A DNA stretch of 64,000 bases from Kiritimatiellia bacterium (GTDB taxonomy: Bacteria; Verrucomicrobiota; Kiritimatiellia; RFP12; UBA1067): assembly GCA_028686345.1 (NCBI GenBank), contig JAQUCE010000001.1:39626-103625 (forward strand), read 5' to 3'. Below, piece after piece: positions 10,124 through 15,623 of the stretch. How positions within the stretch are numbered: the first letter of the stretch is position 1; each line of letters opens with the position of its first letter. The position numbers were made by a program, and so were the translations under genes. A model generated the notes under the pieces. It saw only the letters and a program-made list of their open reading frames with translations. It was not told the origin of the DNA and did no database searches.

Positions 10124-12655
10124 ATGTCCAGCAAGGAAGCTACGGCACGCATAAAAATTAACAGGTTGCTTGAAGAGGCAGGTTGGCGGTTCTTTGCTAA
10201 TGCAGGTGGGCCAGCCAATATCCAGCTTGAACCCAGTGTCACTCTGACAAAGCAGGCCATTGATGGGCTGGGTAATGATTTCGAGAAAGCCTCAAAGGGA
10301 TTTATTGATTTTCTCCTGCTTAATGAAAAGGGATTCCCTTTCATCGTGCTTGAAGCAAAGGCGGAGAGCAAGAACCCGCTTGCCGGTAAAGAGCAGGCCC
10401 GCAAATACGCAAAATCTCAGAGCTGCCGCTTTGTGATTCTTTCCAATGGCAACCTGCACTATTTCTGGGATCTGGAACGCGGTAATCCGTATGTCATTAC
10501 ATCGTTTCCGAATCCAAAATCAGTCATGGGCTACCAGAGAAGCATACCTGACCCTAAACGCCTGATTGCGGAGGTTGTGGATGATGACTATATTGCGCTG
10601 ACCCAGCGTCCAAATTATGCCTCAGAAGCTGCCTGGAAGAATATAGATGAGCGCCCGCATTACATAATGACGAACGCTCTTCGCTTTCTGCGACCGTATC
10701 AGAAGAAGGCCGTTTTCGCTATTCAGCAGGCTGTCAAGGATGGTAAAGACCGTTTTCTGCTCGAAATGGCAACCGGCACTGGCAAGACTCTTATCTCTGC
10801 CGCTCTGATTAAACTTTTCCTGCGCACTGTCAATGCCCGGCGTGTGCTCTTTCTTGTTGACCGTCTGGAACTTGAGGATCAAGCCTGGAAAGCCTTTGCC
10901 AAGTATTTGGCAAATGATTATAAGTGCGTTATCTACAAAGAAAACCGCGATGAATGGCGGCACGCAGAGATTGTTGTTACAACTGTTCAGTCGCTCCTTT
11001 TCAACAATAAATACCAGCAACTCTTTTCACCAACCGATTTTGACCTTGTTATCTCAGATGAAGCCCACCGCTCTATCGGCGGCAATGCCCGGGCTGTATT
11101 CGACTACTTCATTGGCTATAAGCTCGGTCTCACCGCTACGCCCCGGGATTATTTGAAGAAGTTTAAAAAAGACAAACCAACCACCAAAGACCCGCGCGAG
11201 TTTGAGCGTCGTCTGTTACTGGACACCTACCGCACCTTCGGTTGCGATGACGGACAGCCGACCTATCGCTACTCTCTGCTCGATGGAGTCAAAGAGGGCT
11301 TTCTGATCAGCCCCATTGTGGTTGATGCCCGTAGCGAAGTGACCGCGGAGCTGCTCTCAGAACAGGGTTTTATTGTTGAGTTCAAGGATGATGACGGCGA
11401 GGACAAAAAAGAGTCCTACAAACAGCGTGAGTTTGAAAAACGTTTCTTTTCGCCTGCCACTAACCAGCTCTTTTGTAAGATCTTTCTTGAAAATGCCCTG
11501 CGTGATCCAATCAGCAAAGAGATCGGCAAATCCATTATCTTTGCCGTCAGTCAGAATCACGCTGCCAAGCTGGCCCAGATCCTGAATGAGATGGCTGACC
11601 GCATGTTCCCAGGCAAATACAACTCTGACTTTGCAGTGCAGGTTACCTCAGTGATACCCGATGCGAAGCAGCTCACGATCAACTTCACCAACAATATACT
11701 GCTTGGCTCAGCTAACTGTATCAACACCTATAAAACCAGCAAGGCCCGCATCTGTGTCACTGTCGGCATGATGACCACCGGCTACGACTGCCCAGACCTG
11801 CTGAACCTCGGCCTCTTCCGTCCGATCTTTTCACCTACGGATTTTATACAGATCAAAGGGCGCGGCACCCGCAAACATGATTTCAGCGAGCAGCTCTTCG
11901 ATGATGCAATCAAAGAGGGCATTAAGGAGCCTGAGAAGAGCGCCTACAAGATCTTTGATTTTTTTGCAAACTGTGAATATTTCGAGGAGGAGTATGACTA
12001 TGATCAGGTCATAAAGCTTCCAAAGCCAACCGTTAAGAGCGGCGGTGGTGGCGAAGCTCCCCCAAGCATTGGCGAATATGAGTTTACCGGCGATGATATC
12101 CTTGCCTCTATGGATGTTGAAGTCATTGGTTATGAAGGAATGCGGATTGACCGTGAGTTCTACGCAAAGTTTGAAGATACGGTTAGGGAGAATCCGTTTA
12201 TTGCGACAAGTGTCGAGTCTGGTCAATGGGACCGCGTGATTGACTACGTAAACAAAGAGGTCTTTGATAAACCCGAAGAGTTCTACTCGCTTGATAAACT
12301 GCGCCGGGCCGCCGGGGTTGACCGCCGTCTGACGCTGCGTGAAATCCTTGAAAAGATCTTTGGCCTGATCCCGCGCTTTAAATCCAAGGATGAACTGCTG
12401 GAAGAGGAGTTTTCAAAGTTTGTCGCTGATTTCAAGCCCACCGAAGCAGCGGCTATTCCAGCGCTCAAAAACTACTTCAAGGCCTATGCTTCAAGCGGTC
12501 AGCTGCGGCAGATCATTGAATCCGGTCATCTGACCGACCTTGCCACCAATCCCGAGTTCTCCACCAGTGACTTTAGAGCAGTGCCAAAAAAATACCGCAC
12601 CTTGATCCCCAACTATATCAAAGATTATGTTTCCTTAAACCAGTTTGTGGCCTGA
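10124..12655 (+). CDS. hsdR: Type I restriction enzyme R subunit
   Basis: PD-(D/E)XK region GFIDFLLLNEKGFPFIVLEAKAE; Walker A EMATGTGKTL; DEAH (ISDEAHRS); GRGTR helicase motif. Confidence 0.93.
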   Translation: MSSKEATARIKINRLLEEAGWRFFANAGGPANIQLEPSVTLTKQAIDGLGNDFEKASKGFIDFLLLNEKGFPFIVLEAKAESKNPLAGKEQARKYAKSQSCRFVILSNGNLHYFWDLERGNPYVITSFPNPKSVMGYQRSIPDPKRLIAEVVDDDYIALTQRPNYASEAAWKNIDERPHYIMTNALRFLRPYQKKAVFAIQQAVKDGKDRFLLEMATGTGKTLISAALIKLFLRTVNARRVLFLVDRLELEDQAWKAFAKYLANDYKCVIYKENRDEWRHAEIVVTTVQSLLFNNKYQQLFSPTDFDLVISDEAHRSIGGNARAVFDYFIGYKLGLTATPRDYLKKFKKDKPTTKDPREFERRLLLDTYRTFGCDDGQPTYRYSLLDGVKEGFLISPIVVDARSEVTAELLSEQGFIVEFKDDDGEDKKESYKQREFEKRFFSPATNQLFCKIFLENALRDPISKEIGKSIIFAVSQNHAAKLAQILNEMADRMFPGKYNSDFAVQVTSVIPDAKQLTINFTNNILLGSANCINTYKTSKARICVTVGMMTTGYDCPDLLNLGLFRPIFSPTDFIQIKGRGTRKHDFSEQLFDDAIKEGIKEPEKSAYKIFDFFANCEYFEEEYDYDQVIKLPKPTVKSGGGGEAPPSIGEYEFTGDDILASMDVEVIGYEGMRIDREFYAKFEDTVRENPFIATSVESGQWDRVIDYVNKEVFDKPEEFYSLDKLRRAAGVDRRLTLREILEKIFGLIPRFKSKDELLEEEFSKFVADFKPTEAAAIPALKNYFKAYASSGQLRQIIESGHLTDLATNPEFSTSDFRAVPKKYRTLIPNYIKDYVSLNQFVA

Positions 12656-12689: not shown

Positions 12690-15623
12690 ATGCTAGACAC
12701 CGAGACTAAACGCCGAATTGATACTGCCCGTGACATTCTTGTTGGAAAAGTTCCTGACCCCAAATCCCAGGTTGAGCAGATCACCATTGCTTTGATCTAT
12801 AAATTTATGGACGATATGGATGCCGAGTCCGAGGAGCTCGGCGGTAAACGTAAATTTTTCACCGATTCCTTTGCCCGTTACGGTTGGGCCAAACTCATGG
12901 CACCTTCGCTCGGCGGCCATGAGATGCTCGGCCTCTATGGCGAAGGCATTACCAAGATGCCCGAAAATCCCGGCATACCGCCGCTCTTCCGCGACATCTT
13001 CAAAAACGCCTACCTGCCATATCGCGACCCTGAAACACTCAAGGCCTTTCTCAAGGTCATCGACGAATTCAGCTATGATCACAGCGAGCGGCTCGGCGAT
13101 GCCTTTGAGTATCTCCTCAGTGTCCTCGGCAGCCAGGGCGATGCCGGTCAGTTCCGCACCCCGCGCCATATCATTGATTTTATGGTCGAAATCCTTGCCC
13201 CGCAGAAACACGAGACCATCCTCGACCCTGCCTGCGGCACCGCCGGCTTTCTCATTTCGGCTTGGAAGTATGTGCTTGCGCACAATACTTCCAAGCCGAA
13301 ACCCTCACCCCCGGCCCCTCTCCCAGAGGGAGAGGGGAGAAGGCATCATCATCGTGGTGGTTATGATTTCGCTGGATTAAAACGCAGGGCCAGAGAGATG
13401 CGAGGAAAACAGACGGATGCAGAGGCTTTGTTGTGGGAGTTGCTGCGCGACCGGCAGCTCGTGGGGGCCAAGTTTCGCCGCCAGCACCAGTTTGGCGATT
13501 ACATTTGCGACTTTTACTGCAACGATGCCAACCTTGTACTCGAATGTGACGGTGAAATCCACAATTCGCCCAAGCGGCAGACTCTCGATGCCAGCAGGGA
13601 CTCTTATCTCGGATCCCAGGGCCTGACTGTTCTCAGATTCCAGAATCAAGACATCTTACATGATCCAACCGTTGTCCTGGAAAAAATCGCCTCTCATCTT
13701 GAATCACAACTCCCCTCTCCCTTTGGGAGAGGGGTCGGGGGTGAGGGTGAGGTCGTCGCCATGCCCGGCGACCTCTTGAGCCCGGATGAGCGTGGCCGGC
13801 TTGCTAAAAACTTTATTGGGTATGATATTTCACCTGACATGGTGCGTTTGTCATTGGTGAATTTGTATCTGCATGGCTTTGTTGATCCGCACATCTTTGA
13901 ATACGACACCCTCACATCTGAAGAGCGCTGGAACGAATGCGCTGATATCATCCTCGCCAACCCGCCCTTCATGTCGCCGAAAGGCGGGATCAAACCCCAT
14001 AAGCGATTCTCGATTCAGGCCAAGCGCAGCGAGGTTCTCTTTGTTGACTACATGGCCGAGCATCTGACGCCCAATGGCCGCGCAGCTATTATTGTGCCGG
14101 AGGGTATTATCTTCCAGAGTCAGACAGCCTATAAATCATTGCGCAAGATGCTGGTGGAAAACAGCCTTGTGGCAGTGGTCTCCCTGCCGGCAGGAGTTTT
14201 TCAGCCATACTCCGGTGTAAAAACCAGCATCCTGATTCTCGATAAATCGCTTGCCAAGCAGACACTGGATATCGCCTTCTTCAGGGTGGAGAACGACGGC
14301 TTCGGCCTGGGTGCTCAGCGCCGCGCCATTGAAAAGAACGACCTGCCGCAAGTCCAGGCCGAACTCGCCGCCTATCTTCAAGCCCTGCGCGCCCAAGAAC
14401 CGATTGATACCATCCTTGCCCATGCATCTACGGCCCAGATAGTGCCAAAAGAAAAGATCGCCGCAAATGGCGACTACAACCTCAGCGGCGAGCGGTATCG
14501 GGAGAGTGCAGTTCATTCCACCCACTTTCCATGGAAAACCATCGAATCCCTTGTTAAGACCATCACACCTCCCGCCAAAATACATAAAACAGCATTCGGT
14601 ATTGCCGGGCGATTTCCAATCATCGACCAATCACAGGAGGCCATCGCGGGTTGGACTGACGACGAGAAAACATTGATTTATCCTATCAAGCCACTCGTCA
14701 TTTTCGGCGACCACACCTGCGCAATCAAACTCGTTGAGACTCCGTTTGCGCAAGGAGCTGACGGCATTAAAATTCTACAAACCATAGACGCGCTGGACCC
14801 ACGGTTCCTATTCTACGTTCTTCGCGCCAGACCTTTGGAGAGTAGCGGCTATCAGCGTCACTATTCGAAACTCAAGGAGCATCAGATCCCCCTGCCACCA
14901 CTGAAGGTGCAGCAAGCGATCGTGGCGGAGATCGAGGGCTACCAAAAAGTCATCAACGGTGCCCGCGCTGTACTCGACAACTACCGTCCCCAAATCCCTA
15001 TTCATCCCGACTGGCCGATGGTAGCGCTTGGGCAAGTTTGCATTGTGAATCCGCGCAAGTCTGAATTAGCTGACCTGGAAGGTTCCACAGTCGTGTCGTT
15101 CGTTCCAATGTCTGACATTGGCGAGCACGAGATGTTCTTTTCGCCAAAAGGCACGAAGCGACTAGACGAGGTGACTACGAGTTACACCTATTTCAAAGAC
15201 AATGATGTGCTTTTGGCGAAGGTGACACCATGTTTCGAGAACGGAAAGGCTGGCGTTGCCAACGATCTTGTAAATGGGATTGGTTTCGGGTCGAGCGAAT
15301 TATATGTACTGAGACCGACGGGCGATCTCCTCCCGCAGTGGGTATTTATGTTTGTCGCAACGCCTACATTTCGGGCGTGGGCTAAACCGCAGATGACGGG
15401 AACAGGAGGATTGCAAAGAGTTCCAAGAGTAGTGGTTGAAAAATATAAAATCCCCCTCCCGCCCCTCGCCACACAGCAAGCCATTGTAGCCGAGATCGAA
15501 GCCGAGCAAGCGTTAGTGGCCGCCAACCGCGAACTGATCACCCGCTTTGAAAAGAAGATTCAAGCCACCCTCGCCCGTGTTTGGGGTGAGGAAGATGTGA
15601 ATTCGATTATATCAACCGAGTAA
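12690..15623 (+). CDS. Type I DNA methyltransferase-specificity fusion (HsdM-HsdS) with inserted DUF559-like domain
   Basis: Motif I DPACGTAGFL, motif IV ILANPPFMSPKGG, two HsdS-type TRD/coiled segments (IPLPPLKVQQAIVAEIE; IPLPPLATQQAIVAEIEAEQ); one uninterrupted ORF. Confidence 0.92.
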   Translation: MLDTETKRRIDTARDILVGKVPDPKSQVEQITIALIYKFMDDMDAESEELGGKRKFFTDSFARYGWAKLMAPSLGGHEMLGLYGEGITKMPENPGIPPLFRDIFKNAYLPYRDPETLKAFLKVIDEFSYDHSERLGDAFEYLLSVLGSQGDAGQFRTPRHIIDFMVEILAPQKHETILDPACGTAGFLISAWKYVLAHNTSKPKPSPPAPLPEGEGRRHHHRGGYDFAGLKRRAREMRGKQTDAEALLWELLRDRQLVGAKFRRQHQFGDYICDFYCNDANLVLECDGEIHNSPKRQTLDASRDSYLGSQGLTVLRFQNQDILHDPTVVLEKIASHLESQLPSPFGRGVGGEGEVVAMPGDLLSPDERGRLAKNFIGYDISPDMVRLSLVNLYLHGFVDPHIFEYDTLTSEERWNECADIILANPPFMSPKGGIKPHKRFSIQAKRSEVLFVDYMAEHLTPNGRAAIIVPEGIIFQSQTAYKSLRKMLVENSLVAVVSLPAGVFQPYSGVKTSILILDKSLAKQTLDIAFFRVENDGFGLGAQRRAIEKNDLPQVQAELAAYLQALRAQEPIDTILAHASTAQIVPKEKIAANGDYNLSGERYRESAVHSTHFPWKTIESLVKTITPPAKIHKTAFGIAGRFPIIDQSQEAIAGWTDDEKTLIYPIKPLVIFGDHTCAIKLVETPFAQGADGIKILQTIDALDPRFLFYVLRARPLESSGYQRHYSKLKEHQIPLPPLKVQQAIVAEIEGYQKVINGARAVLDNYRPQIPIHPDWPMVALGQVCIVNPRKSELADLEGSTVVSFVPMSDIGEHEMFFSPKGTKRLDEVTTSYTYFKDNDVLLAKVTPCFENGKAGVANDLVNGIGFGSSELYVLRPTGDLLPQWVFMFVATPTFRAWAKPQMTGTGGLQRVPRVVVEKYKIPLPPLATQQAIVAEIEAEQALVAANRELITRFEKKIQATLARVWGEEDVNSIISTE
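13301..13749 (+). mobile_element. In-frame insertion encoding a DUF559-like PD-(D/E)XK domain, bounded by ~39-bp inverted repeats
   Basis: Left end accctcacccccggcccctctcccagagggagaggggag (13301-13339) vs reverse complement of right end (13710-13748), about 2 mismatches in 39; interior protein GDYICDFYCNDANLVLECDGEIH...LTVLRFQNQDIL. Confidence 0.75.

Follow-up and report, generated by a model that had tools for sequence, protein, structure and literature searches.

Palindromic DNA that lies within genes, or that brackets a gene, is known from several systems. Rickettsia palindromic elements (RPEs) are palindromic repeats of ~150 bp that sit in frame in protein genes and are translated, and the part of a review available to us describes no nuclease for them and mentions no fold-back junctions (PMC10969869). 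In REPtrons, a gene for a RAYT (tyrosine transposase associated with repetitive extragenic palindromes, REPs) lies between inverted palindromes, solo palindromes also occur and some are intragenic, including REPs inside repair genes (PMC3733652). In yeast, double-strand breaks can gain local fold-back inverted insertions, short inverted self-copies made next to the break via a hairpin; these are mostly 5–34 bp, have a 41-nt loop in the fold-back hairpin and are joined through 0–5 bp of microhomology (PMC11724301). Homing endonucleases of the EDxHD/Vsr-like kind, such as I-Bth0305I, are low in copy number and return to the same sites. Here we describe a DUF559 nuclease cassette, set between palindromic arms in a type I restriction–modification (R-M) gene of a Kiritimatiellia bacterium, that resembles each of these in part. 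It lies in a 64,000-nt stretch, hereafter the window (GCA_028686345.1, contig JAQUCE010000001.1, positions 39,626–103,625, forward strand). Below, WIN is the window element, G000 its source genome, other G numbers are genomes and L numbers sampled loci.

The host gene is an hsdM–hsdS fusion whose reading frame is open throughout (Table 1), and Pfam places three domains on its single 977-aa product: N6_Mtase (E 3e-47, with motifs DPACG and NPPF, identifying the M subunit of a type I system), DUF559 (PF04480; aa 231–337, E 1e-32, 112.6 bits against a curated cut-off of 20.6) and Methylase_S. The insert, about aa 203–357, lies inside the methyltransferase downstream of motif I, and its two arms are 39 nt long, 95% complementary and 370 nt apart, with a 10-bp hairpin in each. 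An initial annotation made from the DNA letters had proposed just such a cassette between ~39-bp hairpin-bearing inverted repeats, entered into coding DNA with the frame intact; the arms and the Pfam match bear out the first part, and the open frame and the existence of empty sites the second. No intein domain was found in Pfam scans and no Rfam match came near its gathering score; with the frame continuous, we rejected an intein or self-splicing intron. The idea of a palindrome open in every frame was rejected as well: five of the six are open.

Empty sites were found by aligning HsdM relatives, as the initial annotation had proposed. Eleven lack the insert and have a short native loop at the site (NTDAKGHS-LTPDDRG type, ~6 aa in most); at the same site one relative (G400) has a nuclease-less palindrome and two have other small in-frame inserts, so that this loop evidently tolerates insertions. 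An M–S fusion without the insert (830 aa) is present in the relative G018. Two loci, L066 and L070, have the DUF559 domain at the same HsdM site as the window element, and both carry arms; homologues with the domain and without inverted repeats, which the initial annotation had named as the case against it, were not seen there. In HsdR, alignment revealed three insertion sites, each empty in the remaining HsdRs, and one HsdR (L067) bears three solo palindromes as well as two nuclease cassettes. In-frame palindromic insertions with empty orthologues, the mark of RPEs, are thus seen at both HsdM and HsdR sites. The same HsdM loop in another genome (G210:C36 ~111840-111900; L313) holds an unrelated in-frame palindromic insert of AATCCACAATC type, a second family at this hotspot.

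To sample the family, we searched with just the nuclease domain as query and surveyed 388 genomes of the phylum for PF04480, obtaining 50 usable domains in all. Thirty of these, from several phyla, formed one clade in the tree (support 95/93), and all 30 (one of them, L142, truncated) lie in frame in type I R-M subunits, 12 in HsdM and 18 in HsdR, at about eleven loop sites; among the 50 domains, no free-standing gene fell within the clade. Hosts were identified by Pfam scans of nine further proteins and, for the rest, by alignment to scanned ones. Because the query contained no host sequence, confinement to R-M genes does not stem from the search itself, and it sets the family apart from RPEs, whose hosts are unrelated genes rather than a single functional class. 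Copies at the same site tend to be sisters in the tree, HsdM and HsdR hosts are interleaved, and each genome has one or two nested copies. No close relatives of the cassette were found in viral contigs, and a literature search, with subscription papers mostly outside its reach, returned 14 papers that mention DUF559 and none joining it with ‘inverted repeat’. A DUF559 insert that falls outside the clade was seen in a Chloroflexota metagenome-assembled genome (MAG; L084:1886-6673), within a large protein that resembles methyltransferases. Many of the sampled genomes are MAGs, which would favour an assembly artefact or a frameshifted pseudogene, a worry that the initial annotation had itself raised; the same arrangement recurs at the same sites across independent assemblies, however, with open frames and low ω (the ratio of nonsynonymous to synonymous substitution rates), and we regard an artefact as next to impossible.

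Inverted arms (blastn, E <= 1e-3 around the domain) flank 24 of 32 nested and 17 of 21 free DUF559 domains, compared with 2 of 229 random windows from the same loci, so the palindromes are not due to chance. The free-standing genes fall elsewhere in the tree and their palindromes have the opposite orientation, hairpin outside and tail inside (read by eye in some of them); they are a class separate from the nested clade. One such free gene, on a Synechocystis plasmid (CP101716; L344:2402-5090), adjoins a BREX pglX methyltransferase gene, another link between DUF559 and methyltransferases.

These palindromes bear on a suggestion of the initial annotation, that the nuclease acts on and mobilizes its own palindrome in the manner of REP/RAYT pairs, spreading solo copies. 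DUF559 genes of full length, whether nested or free, do mostly sit between related palindromes, and solo copies exist. In the source genome, however, which has one DUF559 domain, exact matches to the hairpin are confined to the window element, joined by a handful of degenerate solo palindromes, and nested-type genomes in general hold few solos. Orientation or hairpin differs between the free and nested types, the solos within hsd genes resemble remnants (see below), same-site copies are old, and the encoded protein is a Vsr/EDxHD-like nuclease rather than an HUH tyrosine transposase; unlike REP/RAYT units, the nested family resides in R-M genes, with no GTAG tag noted. We consider mobilization of this kind improbable.

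Nuclease-less palindromes also occur within R-M genes. A second hsdM of the source genome has one in frame (G000:C34:18600-18850; L024:600-850), reading QLWFIDRGKPDQ-PSPPAPLPKGEGSCLQH-DRGKPDQ; a fold-back stem accompanies it, and a ~21-nt direct repeat lies on the other side. Short-loop solos lay within hsd genes in 9 of ~16 cases and those with longer loops (CTGAA and similar) in 0 of ~14, both small numbers classified by hand. The L161 solo, of tail–hairpin–tail form, occupies the L070 site and has the same fold-back, which fits a remnant left by nuclease loss. Four loci (L007 (own C156), L156, L162 and L174) have solos with a further common hairpin, TAATGCGGGC...GCCCGCAA, immediately ahead of CCCTCACCCC, forming a larger composite repeat. 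In-frame palindromes were also seen within an apparent PriA, the replication restart helicase (L170:3-1985).

The junctions of the nested elements carry a distinctive signature. Read in order, they comprise host sequence X, a loop, X' (the nearby X in reverse complement) and then the first bases of the element (ACCCTC...). At the window element, the left X and X' form a perfect 17-nt inverted repeat (fold z −8.75) that bridges hsdM and the left arm, and its counterpart at the right junction measures 7 bp; empty HsdM alleles lack X'. Among 43 cases with a score of at least 7, X' stopped exactly before CCCTC in 36, and in 31 of those 36 the first base of X was T, as if the first A of the element closed the stem. 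Nested elements had an excess of fold-backs on the left (p 3e-11) and on the right (p 4e-11); free DUF559 elements showed none (p > 0.6). In a further comparison that admitted donors up to 600 nt away, scores of at least 8 were found at 36 of 59 nested ends and at 4.9% of random positions (p 1.5e-17). We rejected fold-back as a general property of palindromes, as there was no significant excess at 113 palindromes in a wide sample. In one hsdR, a fold-back and left arm (~66 bp) are tandemly duplicated with the frame kept (L069:3848-3980). These fold-back copies, like the restriction to R-M genes and the nuclease-less remnants, go beyond the initial annotation.

Loop lengths clustered at 2–6, 12–36 and, above all, 65–75 nt. 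The last class was found at 13 of 21 site-sides against 1.9% expected per end, a binomial comparison that ignores the several copies at some site-sides and so overstates significance, though the excess is still large; the bins were chosen after the data were seen, which makes the 65–75 nt peak provisional until a new sample is taken. The tetramer of the single-stranded DNA-binding protein (SSB) wraps ~65 nt of single-stranded DNA, and a tie between this wrap and the loops is speculation. As in the yeast insertions, short inverted copies of the flanking DNA stand beside the junction; unlike them, these are bacterial, are seen as products of evolution rather than in an assay, lie at both ends of an inserted element and have loops clustered near 70 nt.

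What the fold-backs say about entry is less certain. At HsdR site a, 3 of 12 stem pairs had changed on both sides (four sequences), and same-site copies can have differing donors (for example, left loops of 13, 23 and 3 at M_f), so stems have been rewritten or made more than once. The fold-backs might then be uninformative on entry: if the arms form a cruciform, template-switch mutations at its base could have produced them later, since template switching is known to create, maintain and repair hairpin stems (PMC8794818). Free DUF559 elements with similarly long arms nonetheless show no fold-backs, and the nested stem is almost always exact up to the first base of the element; we take a later origin to be a real possibility that falls short of probable.

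Table 1 Features of the window element and its host operon (window coordinates)
Feature	Position	Strand	Remarks
hsdR, same operon	10124..12655	+	843 aa, without insert; R subunit by sequence reading, not family search
hsdM–hsdS fusion gene with in-frame insert	12690..15623	+	977 aa
X, host sequence, left fold-back donor	13255..13271	+	inverted pair with X', 17/17
X', inverted X copy that stops right at CCCTC of the element	13285..13301	+	
Left arm: tail ACCCTCACCCC outside, hairpin 13315-13337 inside	13301..13339	+	
Linker	13340..13364	+	RGG[FY] here in related cassettes; internal start codon not conserved
DUF559 domain, Vsr/EDxHD-like PD-(D/E)XK nuclease (predicted)	13365..13709	+	
Right arm: hairpin 13712-13734 inside, tail GGGGGTGAGGGT outside	13710..13748	+	
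Right fold-back copy GAGGTCG	13749..13755	+	score 7, loop 13
Host donor of right fold-back copy, CGACCTC	13769..13775	+	

The core of the predicted nuclease (KFRR-H, DF-C and E-DG-H) is invariant in 20 nested copies and is of the PD-(D/E)XK/Vsr type. The predicted structure of the nuclease (pLDDT, the predicted local distance difference test, 85) matches 3hrl, a DUF559 protein of unknown role (E 3e-8), more closely than I-Bth0305I (E 2.6e-4), and Vsr weakly; I-Bth0305I was also matched in sequence (E 0.0013). The prediction for HsdM together with its insert (aa 1–640) was of low confidence (pLDDT 41). Low copy number and recurrent sites are further likenesses to I-Bth0305I, whereas the nested nuclease is fused in frame to its host protein, with no intron, intein or start of its own, and recent homing is not seen. 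The alignments show no conserved internal start codon, which makes it probable that the nuclease is produced only as a fusion.

Purifying selection on the nuclease domain is strong, with ω of 0.03–0.10 in most unsaturated pairs. In same-site comparisons, the proportion of synonymous differences (pS) was mostly higher in the cassette than in the host, so same-site copies are old; recent homing between same-site alleles is unsupported, with no sign of a cassette younger than its host allele. Such low ω values could also describe a domesticated accessory nuclease, kept for useful cutting in type I R-M, with mobility that is ancient and palindromes that are remnants or expression hairpins. The one or two copies per genome and the sister relationship of same-site copies across large synonymous distances fit this, as do the functional link of the DUF559 protein VsrA to a DNA methyltransferase in Caulobacter (PMC12907096) and the free gene beside BREX pglX. 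But cassettes at about eleven different sites of two subunits, with one HsdR holding two of them and the same genes also containing palindromes that lack a nuclease, look like repeated invasion, and the palindrome DNA itself is conserved, the left arms of WIN and L066 being identical at 38 of 39 positions although synonymous sites are saturated. Domestication seems to us a real possibility, though less than probable.

The explanation we favour, with a probability that we put a little above even, is a family of palindrome-bounded, nuclease-coding elements, resident in frame in type I R-M genes, that enter at breaks with fold-back at both ends and are retained in frame. Entry would take place where an empty hsd gene has suffered a double-strand break, and the cutter could plausibly be the element's own homing-endonuclease-like domain. 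Each broken 3' end would fold back, as a tight hairpin or with a ~70-nt loop (near the 65 nt of the SSB tetramer wrap), prime itself and copy 7–19 nt of its own sequence before the folded-back ends were joined to the element. In-frame products would be kept as an extra nuclease domain of the R-M enzyme, subsequent nuclease loss would leave an in-frame palindromic remnant, and template switching may hold the arms matched. The break and its cutter are inferred, as is any advantage that the host might gain. Several points weigh against this explanation: neither break, cut site nor transposition was observed; the pS comparisons give no sign of recent homing; ω this low is also compatible with a function useful to the host; stem covariation means that fold-backs may originate, or be reworked, once the element is in place; fold-backs are missing from solo palindromes elsewhere; and most of the sampled genomes are MAGs. 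A bolder form of it, in which these would be a new class of mobile element, unspliced and in frame, that homes into R-M genes by fold-back priming at both ends of its own break, with a loop set by SSB, and adds a second nuclease to the host enzyme, we think unlikely.

Mobile DNA usually disrupts the gene in which it lands or is removed by splicing; in this family, a nuclease element shares the reading frame of a defence enzyme. With in-frame elements at about eleven loop sites in several phyla, invasion appears to have supplied R-M enzymes with nuclease domains. The family also flags R-M proteins whose architecture is prone to misreading by automated annotation, and its junction signature, with inverted host copies at both ends and loops clustered at 65–75 nt, would expose bacterial fold-back repair at insertion sites in genome data and open it to direct tests.
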